Shown piece after piece: positions 3,069 through 29,158 of a stretch of 29,839 nt of DNA; positions within the stretch are counted from its first letter, which is position 1; each line of letters begins with the position of its first letter. The DNA is from a virus. The stretch is from positions 1-29,839 of IMG/VR virus record IMGVR_UViG_3300035670_000974, one strand, 5' to 3'. Under the pieces are notes generated by a model, which was not told where the DNA came from, did not search any database, and saw only the letters and a list, made by a program, of their open reading frames with translations. The position numbers and the translations under genes were made by a program.

Positions 3069-3697
3069 CGCCCCTGTGTGAGTTGGCCAGGAAGCATCAA
3101 ACCGACAAGGGCGGCGGCCACCTGGTCTACGGTGGCGAGGCAACCGACACCTGCCACAACTACACGCCGGCCTATCACGACCTGTTTGGGCAGCGTCGTG
3201 ACGAGGTCCGCCGCGTGCTCGAGGTCGGCATCAACCGCGGGTGTTCGCTGCGAATGTGGGAGGAGTATTTCCCGCGGGCGGACATCATCGGCCTCGACAT
3301 CGACCCGGCGACCTTGTTTCGTGCGGGCCGGATTCGTTGCTATCAGGCAGACCAAGGCGTTCGCCAGTCGCTCCAGGCCGCGATCGCGGCCGCTGGCGGC
3401 GGCACGTTCGACCTGATCATCGACGACGGCAGCCACCACCCGCTGCACCAAGTGATCACAGCCGAAACGCTGCTGTCGATAGTCGCCCCTGGCGGCACTT
3501 ACGTGATCGAGGACTTGGAGGTGGACTGCCGGCCCGACTTGCTGGCCGGCCTGATCCGGCATCCAGCCGGCATGGCCTGGCGGGCGGTCCCGTGCGGGCA
3601 CGGGATCGGGCCGAAAGCCGCCTGCCGGGCGCTCTGCCAGTTTTGCGGCGGCACCGCCGGGGAGCAGCTGCTGGTCTACCGTTGGGGGGCGGCATGA
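3065..3697 (+). CDS. Class I SAM-dependent methyltransferase (macrocin O-methyltransferase-like)
   Basis: GTG 3065 overlaps the previous stop (GTGA) and follows GGGAGG at 3054-3059. The 210-residue protein has the class I methyltransferase signatures: SAM-binding loop LEVGINRGCS (52-61), acidic strand end GLDID (76-80) and the IIDDGSHH strand (118-125), then a strand with GGTYVIED. The opening KHQTDKGGGH and HNYTPAYHDLF is typical of the sugar O-methyltransferase family that includes demethylmacrocin methyltransferases. In this context it probably methylates a hydroxyl on the sugar handled by the neighbouring enzymes. The fold assignment is firm; the acceptor is unknown. Confidence 0.82.
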   Translation: MTPLCELARKHQTDKGGGHLVYGGEATDTCHNYTPAYHDLFGQRRDEVRRVLEVGINRGCSLRMWEEYFPRADIIGLDIDPATLFRAGRIRCYQADQGVRQSLQAAIAAAGGGTFDLIIDDGSHHPLHQVITAETLLSIVAPGGTYVIEDLEVDCRPDLLAGLIRHPAGMAWRAVPCGHGIGPKAACRALCQFCGGTAGEQLLVYRWGAA

Positions 3698-4746
3698 AAA
3701 TCGGCGTTTACGCGTTGAGCAAGAACGAGCAAAAGCACGCCCTAGCGTGGGCCGAGTCGTGCCAGGAGGCGGACGTTCGGGTGGTCACCGACACCGGCAG
3801 CACCGACGGCACCGTCCAGCGGCTGCACGCCGCCGGCGTGACGGTGGCCACCGGCTACGTTTGTCCCTGGCGTTGGGATGACGCCCACAACCTGGCGCTC
3901 CACCACCTGCCGCCGGACGTGGACGTGGCGATCCGGCTGGACCTCGACGAGCGCCTGCAGCCCGGCTGGCGGGCGGCGATTGAGCGGGCCTGGGTCGACG
4001 GGATCAACAACCTCCGGTATCGCTACGTCTGGAGCTGGGCCGACCACCCGGGCGGCCGGCCGGGGCTAGTGTTTTATTGCGACCGCGTGCACGCCCGACA
4101 CGGCTTCCGCTGGGGCGGGGCCACCCACGAGGGTCTCGTTTGCTGGCACGGGGAGCGGCGGGTGGCCGTGGCCGACGGGCTGCAAATCTGGCACTACCGC
4201 GACCAAGGCAAGAAACACGGGACCGACCTCGAGCTGCTGCGGGTAGCCGTGGCGGAGGCCCCGCACGACGCCCGGATGCGGTGGTATCTGGCGAGGGAGT
4301 GCGACTACCGCGCGTTGCCAGAGGCCGCGGCCCAGTTTGCGGCCTACCTACGGATGCCCGGCGGCCAGCCCACCGAGCGGTCCTATGCCCTGCGTGCGCT
4401 CCACCGGCTGACAGGTGACGAGGCCCACCTGCACAAGGCTGCCAGCGAGGCACCGTGGGAGCCAGACGCTTGGGAGCGGCTGGCTTGGGTTCGCTACCAG
4501 CAGCAGGATTGGCGTGAGGCCTACGGTTTCGCCAGGGCGGCCCTGAAGGCTCCCGGCCCCAGTACCCACGCCACCGATCCCAACGTGCCCGCCAAGGCGT
4601 CAGACCTGGCTGCCGTGGCCGCCTGGAACCTCGGCAGGCGGCCAGAGGCCCTGCAGTTGGCGGAGGCTGCAGTGTCACTATGCCCAGGTGACCCGCGGCT
4701 TAAGGCCAACGTGGAGGCCATGCGGCGGCAGACGGAGGCAGCATGA
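3694..4746 (+). CDS. GT2-family glycosyltransferase with C-terminal helical repeats
   Basis: A 350-residue protein starting at ATG 3694, overlapping the methyltransferase stop. The N-terminal GT-A fold shows VTDTGSTDGT (31-40), the nucleotide-sugar contact region, and DLDE (83-86) as the metal-binding DxD equivalent; HEG (145-147) corresponds to the usual acceptor-side motif. Residues of about 187-340 are helical pairs resembling TPR repeats, as in GT2 enzymes that glycosylate proteins or polysaccharides. Its stop overlaps the start of the tail completion gene at 4743, so it is probably translated together with virion proteins. The donor and acceptor cannot be read from the sequence. Confidence 0.85.
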   Translation: MKIGVYALSKNEQKHALAWAESCQEADVRVVTDTGSTDGTVQRLHAAGVTVATGYVCPWRWDDAHNLALHHLPPDVDVAIRLDLDERLQPGWRAAIERAWVDGINNLRYRYVWSWADHPGGRPGLVFYCDRVHARHGFRWGGATHEGLVCWHGERRVAVADGLQIWHYRDQGKKHGTDLELLRVAVAEAPHDARMRWYLARECDYRALPEAAAQFAAYLRMPGGQPTERSYALRALHRLTGDEAHLHKAASEAPWEPDAWERLAWVRYQQQDWREAYGFARAALKAPGPSTHATDPNVPAKASDLAAVAAWNLGRRPEALQLAEAAVSLCPGDPRLKANVEAMRRQTEAA

Positions 4747-22246: not shown

Positions 22247-22453
22247 GTGCTGGTGTTGTCGCGAAGGCTGGGGCAGTCGGTGGTGATCCCAGGTTGCCGG
22301 GTCGAAATCGTGGTGCAGGAGATCCACGAGGGCACGGTGCGGCTGGGGTTCAAGGCTCCCGACCACGTTGACATCTACCGGGACGAAATCTGGCGGGACA
22401 TGTGTTTTGAGGATTGGAACAAGAGGAGCGACCACGATGGGACTGAAGATTGA
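22247..22453 (+). CDS. csrA: Phage-encoded CsrA-family RNA-binding regulator
   Basis: GTG 22247 is chosen because the product then begins MLVLSRRLGQSVVI, the classical CsrA start, and AAAGGGA lies just upstream; an open extension upstream to GTG 22178 has no conserved sequence. The 68-residue protein keeps the RNA-contact residues R6 and R7, the VRLGFKAPDHVDIYRDEI core and R45. CsrA dimers bind GGA in mRNA leaders and usually block translation. Here it lies between early regulators and a recombinase, so it may re-tune host mRNAs or the phage's own GGAGG-rich leaders. Confidence 0.9.
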   Translation: MLVLSRRLGQSVVIPGCRVEIVVQEIHEGTVRLGFKAPDHVDIYRDEIWRDMCFEDWNKRSDHDGTED

Positions 22454-23345
22454 ACGCGGACTGAAGGACTCGCCGGTGCGGGCCGTGATCTATGGCACCG
22501 AGGGCATCGGAAAATCGACGCTGGCGGCCCAGTTTCCCGGGCCGCTGATCCTCGACACCGAGGACGGGACCGGGCGGATCGACTGCGCCCGGGTCGTGTG
22601 CCACGACGCCCTGACCCTAGAAGGTGCGATGTTGGACCTGATCGGGGACGCCCAGGGATTCAAGACGGTCGTGGTCGATTCGGCCGACTGGGCGGAGCGG
22701 CAGGTGCTCGAGCACCTGCTGAAGAAAGCCGGCAAGCGGTCGATTGAGGACTTTGGTTTCGGCAAGGGCTACACAATGCTAGCCGAGGCCTGCGCCCGGA
22801 TCCTGAGTCTGGGCGATCAGATGGTTGCCCGGGGGCTGAACGTCGTGTTCGTGGCCCACGCCGCCGTCAAGCGGTGCAGTCCGCCGGACGAAACCGACGG
22901 CTACGACCGCTACGAGTTGAAGCTGACGCGGCAGACCGGGCCGCTGTTCAAAGAGTGGGCCGACCTGGTGCTGTTCTGCAACTACAAGACCCGCCTGGTC
23001 GAGGGCAGCGACGGCCGCAAGAAAGCCACCGGCGGCAAGCAGCGGGTCATGTACGCCGAGCGGGCCGCGGCCTGGGACGCCAAGAATCGGTACGGCCTGC
23101 CGGCGGAGATGCCGATGGCGATCGGGGAGCTGGCCCCGGCGCTCAAGTCGCAGACGCTGGCCGAGACCATCGCCGGCCATATCGCGGCGGCCACGAGCGT
23201 CAAGCAGCTGGGCAAGTTTGGCGACCGGATCGACGAGCTGGTGAGCGAGGACAAGATCAGCGGCGACGAATGGTCGAGGCTGACCGACGCGATCGCCGCC
23301 CGCCACCAGGAGCTGGAGCCGGAGAAGGAGGTGGCCGATGCCTGA
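22437..23345 (+). CDS. RecA-like AAA ATPase, Sak4-type recombinase candidate
   Basis: A 302-residue protein from ATG 22437, overlapping the csrA end by 17 bases. It has Walker A GTEGIGKST (20-28) and Walker B VVVDS (78-82), then NVVFVAHAAVKRC, a sensor-like strand. The MG-KIerG layout, the FGFGKGY segment and the C-terminal region are those of the phage AAA_24/Sak4 family, single-strand annealing or strand-exchange ATPases usually encoded beside an SSB, as here. It probably acts in phage DNA recombination and repair. A purely packaging or replication ATPase is less likely. Confidence 0.8.
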   Translation: MGLKIERGLKDSPVRAVIYGTEGIGKSTLAAQFPGPLILDTEDGTGRIDCARVVCHDALTLEGAMLDLIGDAQGFKTVVVDSADWAERQVLEHLLKKAGKRSIEDFGFGKGYTMLAEACARILSLGDQMVARGLNVVFVAHAAVKRCSPPDETDGYDRYELKLTRQTGPLFKEWADLVLFCNYKTRLVEGSDGRKKATGGKQRVMYAERAAAWDAKNRYGLPAEMPMAIGELAPALKSQTLAETIAGHIAAATSVKQLGKFGDRIDELVSEDKISGDEWSRLTDAIAARHQELEPEKEVADA

Positions 23346-26438: not shown

Positions 26439-26645
26439 ATGAGCCAACGGTGGCTGACCAGCGACGAGGTGGCAGAAATGCTGCGGGTGCGACCGGCGAC
26501 GGTGGCCCAGTGGCGGTGGCGTCGGCGCGGGCCGGCGTTCGTGAAACTCGCGGACGGGCCGGCCGGCAAAGTCAGGTACGAGCGGCGGGAGGTTGAGCGG
26601 TGGATGAAAGATCCGGTGAGTTACCAAGCAAGGAGGATGAAGTGA
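26439..26645 (+). CDS. MerR/excisionase-type HTH protein
   Basis: A 68-residue protein from ATG 26439. It is a complete helix-turn-helix of the HTH_17 kind: WLTSDEVAEMLRVRPATVAQ, then WRRRGPAFVKLADGPAGKVR and EVERWMKD. This is a second excisionase-like protein, distinct from the one beside the integrase, and is coupled to the ParB-Dam gene by a GTGA overlap. It probably regulates this early block. The preceding gap (26315-26438) holds only a few short repeats and no gene. Confidence 0.75.
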   Translation: MSQRWLTSDEVAEMLRVRPATVAQWRWRRRGPAFVKLADGPAGKVRYERREVERWMKDPVSYQARRMK

Positions 26646-27841
26646 CGACAGCGACAGACACGATCACGATGATCCCGGTTTCGCAACTCAAGCCGCACCC
26701 GAAGAATCCGCGGGTCGCCCTGCGCGACGACGTCGTGGACGCGATAGCGGCCGACTTGGCCGAGCGCGGCCACATGGAGGCAAGGCACGCCATCACCGTC
26801 CGGGAGGTCGGCGACGGCTACGAGATCATTAGCGGCCACCACCGCCAAGCGGCGGCCGGAAAGGCCGGGCTCGAGGAGGTGCCGTGCTGGGTAGTTGAGA
26901 TGGACGACGACCAGGCCTATATGGCGTTGGCGACGAGCAACAACCAAGGCGAGATTTCACCGCTTGAGATCGGTCTTCACGCCCTGCACCGGGGCAAGGG
27001 TGACAAATGGAGCGGCCCGAAGGGCAAGAAGTATGCCGAGCTTGTTGGACGACACGAGCAGGAGGTTTCTCACGCGAAGGCAGCGGCGCAGGTTTACAAG
27101 CTTGTGCCGGAAGAGATCAAATTTACATATGTAAATTTGAGGGCAGAGGGTCACGACAAGTGGCGGCACCTTGCCGCCGTCAAGCAGATCAAGGACAAGA
27201 CGCATTGGGGCGAGGCCGTCGGCAGAGCGTTCCAAGAGACGCTAACGGTTGAGCAATGCCAGCGGCTGGCTGACGGCGTGAACGCTGGCCAGCGAGTGAA
27301 GGACGTCAAGCTGGCTGAGTCGCTGTGCCACGTCGCCAACAACAGCGGCGATAACGAGTGGTACACGCCGGACGAGTACCTTGATGCGGCACGCCGCGTC
27401 ATCGGTGAGTTTGACTTAGATCCGGCGTCAAACCCTGTTGCAAACGAACGTGTTCGGGCTGCTGTTTTCTACACAGCCGAAGACGATGGACTAGCCAAAG
27501 ACTGGTCTGGCGTCGTCTGGATGAACCCGCCATACGAGTCGTCGCTGGTTGACAAGTTTGCCAAGAAGCTGGCCGACAGTTATTTCGCCGGCGATGTGAC
27601 GGCCGCGGTGGTCCTTGTCAACAACGGCACTGAAACAAAGTGGTTTCAGTGCCTCGCGGAGCAGGCGTCTGCGATTTGCTTCCCTAAAGGCCGGGTCAAG
27701 TTTTGGCATCCGCGCAAGGAGGCGGTGCCGCTGCAGGGCCAGGCCGTGCTTTATCTCGGCGACGACACGGAGGCCTTTGTCGCCGAGTTCTCTTCGTTTG
27801 GCTTCTGCATGGAGGTATCTAATGAGCTGGTCGAACGGTAA
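26642..27841 (+). CDS. ParB-N domain fused to phage Dam-type N6-adenine methyltransferase
   Basis: GTG 26642 follows AGGAGG (26631-26636) and overlaps the previous stop. The 399-residue protein has a ParB N-terminal domain (about 9-115; IPVSQLKPHPKNPR and SGHHR at 64-68), a helical linker (115-230) and a Dam-type domain from about 238: NEWYTPDEYLDAARRVIGEF, FDLDPAS and the catalytic NPPY at 295-298. Such fusions occur in phages and methylate adenine, which may protect phage DNA or mark replication sites. The ParB part may recognise the DNA. A 24-bp perfect palindrome lies inside the gene at 27117-27140. Confidence 0.88.
   Translation: MTTATDTITMIPVSQLKPHPKNPRVALRDDVVDAIAADLAERGHMEARHAITVREVGDGYEIISGHHRQAAAGKAGLEEVPCWVVEMDDDQAYMALATSNNQGEISPLEIGLHALHRGKGDKWSGPKGKKYAELVGRHEQEVSHAKAAAQVYKLVPEEIKFTYVNLRAEGHDKWRHLAAVKQIKDKTHWGEAVGRAFQETLTVEQCQRLADGVNAGQRVKDVKLAESLCHVANNSGDNEWYTPDEYLDAARRVIGEFDLDPASNPVANERVRAAVFYTAEDDGLAKDWSGVVWMNPPYESSLVDKFAKKLADSYFAGDVTAAVVLVNNGTETKWFQCLAEQASAICFPKGRVKFWHPRKEAVPLQGQAVLYLGDDTEAFVAEFSSFGFCMEVSNELVER
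27117..27140. repeat. 24-bp perfect AT-rich palindrome inside the ParB-Dam gene
   Basis: The left half TCAAATTTACAT (27117-27128) is the exact reverse complement of the right half ATGTAAATTTGA (27129-27140), with no spacer. It sits in GC-rich coding sequence at codons 159-167. The length and AT content are far from its surroundings. It is a candidate operator, ParB-binding centromere or replication site. Confidence 0.8.
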
Positions 27842-28322
27842 GCCGATGGTCGAGGATGCCTACGCTCAAGGCAAAATGCTCGACAACTCAAGCTGGAAGC
27901 TCGCTAGAGGCTCTAGCCCTTGTGATGCGGATTCTGTCCAGCCTGTTGGCGGCGAGCCTGTGCAGTTGCCCTGGATGCTGGACTCGCACGGCTGCTTCAT
28001 CTGGGCGTTTATTGAGCGAGGACACGCGAATCCCGAGTGGCTTTCTGTTGGCCAGCGGCGTGTGCTGAGTGGACTAGCGAAGCTTCCAGGCAATCACGCC
28101 TGCTGCGTTGCCAAGCACAACGTCCCAGCGGCTCGGCAGATCAACACCAAACACGACATCGAGGAGGTGTGCGTGGTGTTCGACATGGGGACGCGGCAGC
28201 ACAGCATCGACAACAACGAGTGGATCGTGTTCGTGGAGTCTTGGGCTCGCAACGCCAAGACGGCCTTGGATTGGCTGCGTAGCAAGGCAAACATCGCCGC
28301 CACGATTGAGGAGATGATCTGA
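27822..28322 (+). CDS. Hypothetical early protein
   Basis: A 166-residue protein from ATG 27822 with GGAGGT (27811-27816), overlapping the end of the methyltransferase gene. It contains LPWMLDSHGCFIWAFIERGH, a helical part with VLSGLAKLPGNHACCVAK and a last strand-helix part with VCVVFDMGTRQHSIDNNEWI. It may be a small alpha/beta protein; no family is recognised. Base composition is again somewhat lower in GC, as in the ParB-like gene upstream. Confidence 0.6.
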   Translation: MSWSNGKPMVEDAYAQGKMLDNSSWKLARGSSPCDADSVQPVGGEPVQLPWMLDSHGCFIWAFIERGHANPEWLSVGQRRVLSGLAKLPGNHACCVAKHNVPAARQINTKHDIEEVCVVFDMGTRQHSIDNNEWIVFVESWARNAKTALDWLRSKANIAATIEEMI

Positions 28323-29158
28323 TGGCCGGTGAATGGATCGCCTACGACCTGGCCCTCCCGGACAAGCCGGAGGTCCAGGAGCTGATCGACCTGACCGGCG
28401 AGCCGGTCGAGGCTGTCGTGTTCAACCTGCTCCGCCTCTGGGGCTGGGCCTCAATGCACTGTGCCGACGGCACGGCCCGCATGACCCTGACCAGGCTGGT
28501 CAGGACGTGCGGGGCCGACGACGGATTCTGGCGGGCCGTGGCGGCCGTCGGATGGCTGGAGATCGACGAGACGGCCGCTACCGTTGCTGTCCCCGGATGG
28601 GACCGCCGGTTTAGCCAGGCGGCCAAGTCGAGAATCCAGCACCGCGACCGGGCAGCGGCCCAGGAGGGCCGAAATCCCGGCCGAAAACGCAGCGCAGGCA
28701 CCGGCTGCGCTCAAGCGCAGGCGCCGCCTGCGCCCGAGCGCAGTAGAGGAGAGGAGATGAGAGGAGAATATCCTCCTCCTCCGCCCCCGGCTGACGCGTG
28801 GGAACGGCTGCGGGCAGCATGGCGGGCAGGGCCTGGCAGGCCCTGGAAGCCGGCAGAGCCGCCCGACGGGCTCGCGGAGCGGCTGGCGGAGCCCGGGTGG
28901 CTCGACGAGGCCCTGGAGGCGATCCCGCGGCTGGCAGGGTGCCGATTCTTCAAAACCCCGCCGACGCTGATCCAGTTCGTGAAACAGGGCTTTGTGCGGC
29001 GGGTCATGGGTGGCCAATACGACGACCCAAAGCCGGCCCGCGGCCCGGCCCCGGCAGACGACCGCCCGCCGGCCCGGGGATGGACCGGGGACGATGCCGC
29101 CCGCCTCGAGGCGACCCGCCGGGCCATGGCGGCCAAAATGCAAGCGGAGGTGGCGTGA
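28322..29158 (+). CDS. Replication initiator-like protein (phage O/DnaD type)
   Basis: A 278-residue protein from ATG 28322 on the previous stop. Residues 1-105 form a winged-helix domain of the kind found at the start of phage replication initiators: WIAYDLALPDKPEVQELIDL, LLRLWGWASMHCADG and VGWLEIDETAATVAVPGWDR. A low-complexity linker follows, encoded by tandem iterons. The C-terminal half has a helical domain (WERLRAAWRAGPGRPWKPAE; RFFKTPPTLIQFVKQGF) that could load a helicase. Phages often place the origin inside the initiator gene, as lambda does in O. Confidence 0.7.
   Translation: MAGEWIAYDLALPDKPEVQELIDLTGEPVEAVVFNLLRLWGWASMHCADGTARMTLTRLVRTCGADDGFWRAVAAVGWLEIDETAATVAVPGWDRRFSQAAKSRIQHRDRAAAQEGRNPGRKRSAGTGCAQAQAPPAPERSRGEEMRGEYPPPPPPADAWERLRAAWRAGPGRPWKPAEPPDGLAERLAEPGWLDEALEAIPRLAGCRFFKTPPTLIQFVKQGFVRRVMGGQYDDPKPARGPAPADDRPPARGWTGDDAARLEATRRAMAAKMQAEVA
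28692..28743. repeat. 23-bp iterons inside the initiator gene, candidate origin
   Basis: Two 23-bp units (28692-28714 and 28715-28737) each begin GCGCAGGC and contain CTGCGC 13 bases later; a third partial copy GCGCAG follows at 28738. The second unit carries a perfect inverted repeat GCGCAGGC-GCC-GCCTGCGC. The unit length is not a multiple of three, so codon repetition cannot explain it. A purine-rich tract with a GGAGAATATCCTCC core (28763-28776) follows to the right. Confidence 0.6.

Follow-up and report, generated by a model that had tools for sequence, protein, structure and literature searches.

Why should a viral gene that joins a ParB-type DNA-binding module to a DNA methyltransferase carry a long perfect palindrome inside its coding sequence? 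The question is raised by a linear IMG/VR virus record of 29,839 bases (the window, the whole stretch of DNA analysed here), which encodes a ParB_N-HTH-Dam fusion protein of 399 amino acids at 26642–27841 on the plus strand, with a GTG start that agrees with the ATG of its close relative L002. The ParB N-terminal domain (PF02195, residues 7–93, 26660–26920, plus strand) gives profile matches to Spo0J, Noc, and ParB structures, and Noc aligns with the profile of the window protein over 6–194. A helix-turn-helix (HTH) at residues ~126–153 (helices 126–135 and 139–153; 27017–27100, plus strand), placed by the Noc profile alignment and a low-confidence AlphaFold2 model, is the proposed reader of the palindrome. 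The Dam N6-adenine methyltransferase domain (PF05869, phrog_111) follows at residues 237–356 (27350–27709, plus strand). Of the motifs relevant to CTP binding and hydrolysis and to clamp sliding, the protein has a Box II-like SGHHR, and its Box III reads SNNQGE versus ENxxR. The window thus provides the ParB_N domain with an HTH that a ParABS system requires; a ParA ATPase (AAA_31) is found neither in the window nor in 20 other phage ParB-fusion records, which are possibly fragments, and the suggestion of the first-pass annotation that the site serves plasmid-like segregation in this phage finds no support there. As context, a replication initiation protein gene lies at 28322–29158 on the plus strand (phrog_2509, E 1e-20), and ahead of the tail tape measure gene lies a gene at 3241–4746 that matches phrog_13126 (beta-1,4-glycosyltransferase).

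The palindrome, TCAAATTTACATATGTAAATTTGA, lies at 27117–27140, the coordinates also given by the first-pass annotation. It is perfect and spacer-free (12+12 bp), is the longest perfect palindrome among all in the window, and overlaps the codons of residues 159–167 (IKFTYVNLR; 27116–27142, plus strand) immediately past the HTH. It includes several codons that this phage seldom uses (GTA 5%, ACA 12%, AAT 15%, and TTG 15%). As a short inverted repeat of 24 bp within a ParB-fusion gene, it has both the form of a parS site and the usual location of one, within or adjoining par genes. From base composition, ~0.005 perfect arms of at least 12 are expected per window, and an arm of 12 was reached in 3 of 400 shuffles of the synonymous codons of the gene. 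Taken by itself the window palindrome is therefore unusual and moderately improbable but not decisive; the earlier statement that chance is very unlikely holds once relatives are compared, and it is through that comparison, not from the window alone, that a chance origin was ruled out. The palindrome was also said to lack GATC, and there is indeed none inside it; one GATC does overlap its left edge (27115–27118) and has no counterpart in L002, where the letters are AATC. A search of the window for the further copies that had been suggested, tolerating as many as three mismatches, returned none, and an exact 20-mer had no match in other viral contigs. Another perfect palindrome of the window, GCAGGTGCTCGAGCACCTGC, with 10-bp arms, is found at 22700–22719 within the AAA_24 gene at 22368–23345.

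The comparison with near relatives reveals mirrored change. The L002 protein is 89% identical to that of the window, and its palindrome, TCAAAGTTACATATGTAACTTTGA, has G for T on one arm and, at the mirror position of the other, C for A, so that 12 of 12 pairs are kept; both changes are non-synonymous (F to V and N to T). A search with the ParB part retrieved L038–L043, which belong to the same ParB subfamily as the window. Perfect palindromes with different letters are present at the same place in L038 (AAATCCATAAGTCAACTTATGGATTT), L039 (AAATCTGTAAGTCAACTTACAGATTT), L040 (AAATCCACAAGTCAACTTGTGGATTT), L041 (AAATCCGCAAGTCAACTTGCGGATTT), and L042 (AAATCGTTTACTCAAGTAAACGATTT), and the counterpart in L043 is AACTGTTGTAACGATACAACAGTT. 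Among L038–L042, 58 of 58 pairwise differences within the palindrome are mirrored, compared with 0 of 54 and 30 of 88 in flanks of equal length. An internal control is available in the hairpin at 27626–27653 (11-bp arms, in the Dam part, 500 bp away), which loses two pairs in L002 and is apparently not maintained. The methyltransferase of L038 is a different one, PF01555, which indicates that the palindrome accompanies the ParB module and not Dam. The first-pass annotation had proposed weighing the palindrome against synonymous change in homologues, with free loss of the palindrome under a kept protein sequence counting against it; what is observed is that letters and amino acids both change and the palindrome is kept by mirrored changes. 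The dyad is maintained by compensatory change across relatives.

The letters that are chosen follow the DNA-reading part of the protein. This result rests on clostridial and phage sets, the window's own subfamily having only eight known members. In a scan of 37 clostridial representatives with <85% identity, the columns most informative on the half-site, its own codons aside, were 143, 129, 131, 142, 146, and 140, where residues 141–147 form the recognition helix and columns 129 and 131 belong to the neighboring linker. With palindrome codons and these two linker columns removed, the top columns are 143, 142, 146, and 140, all within the HTH; columns before residue 117 and past the HTH have z below 3.7. 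In a partial Mantel analysis of 32 representatives, r is 0.40–0.43 for the recognition helix (p 0.0005); the first HTH helix reaches 0.17, and six other segments lie between −0.08 and 0.05, controls outside the HTH being about 0. In the phage set the Mantel r for the helix is 0.64 with controls at 0.26–0.33, which means that phylogeny is only partly removed there; the helix and half-site pairs in this set include EKTIRR with GGAC, PATVRR with GATC, QATIRR with GCTC, and EKTVRN with GGNAA. In L239 and L231 the outer arms differ and the inner arm that matches their helix is retained. The palindrome and the HTH are tens of bases apart, and linkage therefore adds to the covariation. The half-site letters change together with recognition helix residues 142, 143, and 146 and show no such tie to the remainder of the protein.

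The arrangement extends well beyond the close relatives of the window. Other phage ParB-Dam genes have palindromes of other sequence, situated between ParB_N and the HTH, and the core GGACAAAATGTCC is translated as Q-N-V in some phage genes and as D-K-M-S in others; being read in two frames, it is conserved as DNA and not as peptide. Of 80 clostridial-type genome ParB loci, 74 have a linker palindrome scoring at least 8, mostly of the form ACTTSNNNNCAASTTGNNNNSAAGT; no palindrome is present in other ParB groups, whose linker is different. The spacing at the palindrome center varies by family from 0 to 5 nt. ParA is directly upstream in both chromosomal relatives that were checked (L208 and L162). 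A generic pattern found 1–6 sites in 20 of 22 whole genomes and none in the control, and of 46 genome stretches inspected, 39 place the site in a ParB gene or linker (35 by strict motif and four, L244, L264, L277, and L285, by eye). No second copy was seen in the flanks, of up to 3 kb, of 75 genome loci, and the phage records of five relatives have one site each by a search pattern that does not fit the window, L002, and L043 types.

Several individual loci deserve mention. Palindromes of the clostridial form occur outside any recognized parB gene in L247, L265, L268, L269, L271, and L280, and those of L268 and L269, which share one contig at a distance of ~6.7 kb, are almost identical. At the extreme end are L031, L032, and L147, with a 32-bp perfect palindrome, AATCGCAGGTGGCAAATTTGCCACCTGCGATT, and 18-bp arms in L147. 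One ParB linker, that of L097 (match start 2001, residues ~121–145), holds tandem palindromes with 18-bp and 12-bp arms and encodes TSGQSDQKL twice. The genome of L164 (G002) has six clostridial-form sites with at least four half-sites (CCGAC, GTCCC, GGGCC/GGGTC, and TGGAC). Avoidance of cross-binding among co-resident elements would predict such diversity, yet some half-sites are shared. A non-ParB HTH protein, L159, has a near-palindrome, TTTCAACTGTTTCAAATGAAACACTTGAAA, just past its HTH, and the phenomenon may therefore reach beyond ParB.

These observations argue strongly that the palindrome is a parS-like double-stranded DNA site for the HTH of the ParB-type protein encoded by the same gene, a reading that we consider very probable on the comparative data. 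The earlier proposal of a ParB-type site inside a parB-like gene is thus likely to be correct, given that the site letters track the recognition helix and that precedents for parS within parB exist. The HTH would bind the palindrome within its own gene, and a ParB clamp would be loaded there. The half-site of each lineage coevolves with the recognition helix, so that each element would have a private protein–site pair. The site is placed where the protein tolerates change: in most families this is the loop that connects ParB_N to the HTH, and in the window's it is just past the HTH. In the L046 model, residues 116–126 are the sole segment with pLDDT <50 and the palindrome encodes ~120–128; for the window protein, AlphaFold2 gives a model that is poor beyond residue 100 and puts the palindrome immediately past the HTH with low confidence. 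In relatives with ParA the site would be a centromere used for partition. In the window type, the fused Dam methyltransferase could be brought onto the phage's own DNA via the site, and since no ParA is found in the phage ParB-fusion records, the site there is more likely to act in loading the protein together with its methyltransferase, or in autoregulation. A more tentative extension is that the phage ParB-Dam protein is a nucleotide-gated clamp that loads at the palindrome of its own gene, slides in cis, and methylates only the DNA molecule carrying that gene; if true, this would amount to self versus non-self methylation with a private, fast-evolving address.

Autoregulation is also the substance of the best-surviving alternative, in which the palindrome is an operator for roadblock repression by the encoded protein, such that the protein–site pairing is the same and only its use differs from loading or partition. 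The site does lie within a transcribed gene, the ParB-family protein KorB, a weak match, is a repressor, and all of the covariation data are compatible with such a role. However, the site is ~475 bp past the start codon, far from a promoter, and relatives adjoin ParA; we regard an operator as unlikely. Considerably less credible is an mRNA hairpin between the ParB and enzyme domains that acts as a translational pause or regulator. Every site is foldable as RNA, and the coding strand is presumably transcribed, but dyads without a spacer exist and a hairpin gives no reason for covariation with a DNA-reading helix. At positions 2–12 of 71 distinct sites (one row mis-centered), the arm mismatches comprise 14 A.C and five G.T, the opposite of the G-U tolerance expected of a stem; since an RNA stem should favor G.T, the lack of a G.T excess points to a DNA dyad, and the RNA stem was discarded on these counts.

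We give still less credence to a mobile palindromic element inserted in frame, comparable to Rickettsia palindromic elements or PARCELs. The variable linker length, the occurrence of the same core in two frames, the tandem double palindrome of L097, and the few copies outside parB could all be read in this way. Such elements, however, have copies in unrelated genes, whereas the same palindrome was largely absent from unrelated genes within these genomes, the sites inspected are in ParB genes in the large majority of stretches, and the flanks of the 75 loci have no further copies. The palindrome is nearly always at one place in one gene family, and inserted copies should decay, whereas divergence here comes with perfect symmetry. 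Least probable of all is a mutational artefact, template-switch correction of quasi-palindromes being a known mutation process that would preserve perfection without selection and yield mirrored changes like those of L002 and L038–L042, but that predicts no single homologous place in one gene family across phyla, does not explain letters tied to the recognition helix, and is at odds with the two pairs dropped in L002 by the hairpin at 27626–27653.

If the palindrome is indeed the parS-like site of the encoded protein, each gene holds a DNA-reading helix together with its presumed site, so that very many natural protein–site pairs can be read from sequence. Direct tests thereby become possible of the ParB recognition code, of how partition specificity and incompatibility evolve, and of what phage ParB-methyltransferases do, and the genes are candidates for coding sequence that is shaped, amino acids included, by a DNA-binding site.

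In terms of known systems, the closest precedents are chromosomal and plasmid-borne. In Bacillus subtilis, parS-359 lies within the parB (spo0J) coding sequence (PMC4442127), as the site does in the window; unlike the sites described here, it is one of ~ten with a common 16-bp consensus (PMC7022226) and has not been reported to be hypervariable or to coevolve within the gene. The parS1 and parS2 sites of the Streptomyces plasmid SCP1 are, like that of the window, inverted repeats within parB genes (parB1 and parB2); the cognate ParB binds them specifically, with a KD of ~380 nM, and the recognition helices are divergent (PMC13245405). Unlike in the window, there are three copies of each around the operon, ParA is present, and a methyltransferase is absent; nor are these sites presented as something fixed throughout a gene family. 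Specificity switching between ParB and Noc has established that residues of the HTH domain set site preference (PMC7383237), with two specificities (parS and NBS), whereas here tens of natural half-sites adjoin their own HTH. Phage ParB-methyltransferase fusions of the same type as the window's are described in a survey as enriched in prophages, with a possible anti-defence role suggested (PMC12704722); its main text does not contain the word palindrome, and we found no binding site shown there for these fusion genes. In the open-licence literature we found no account of ParB gene families in which a hypervariable palindrome that coevolves with the HTH is a standing feature, nor of any such site inside phage ParB-methyltransferase genes. 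A parS inside parB (B. subtilis parS-359 and SCP1) and the switching of specificity by HTH residues were thus already known; new here are a hypervariable site that coevolves with the HTH within a coding sequence and the occurrence of this site in phage ParB-methyltransferases that lack ParA.
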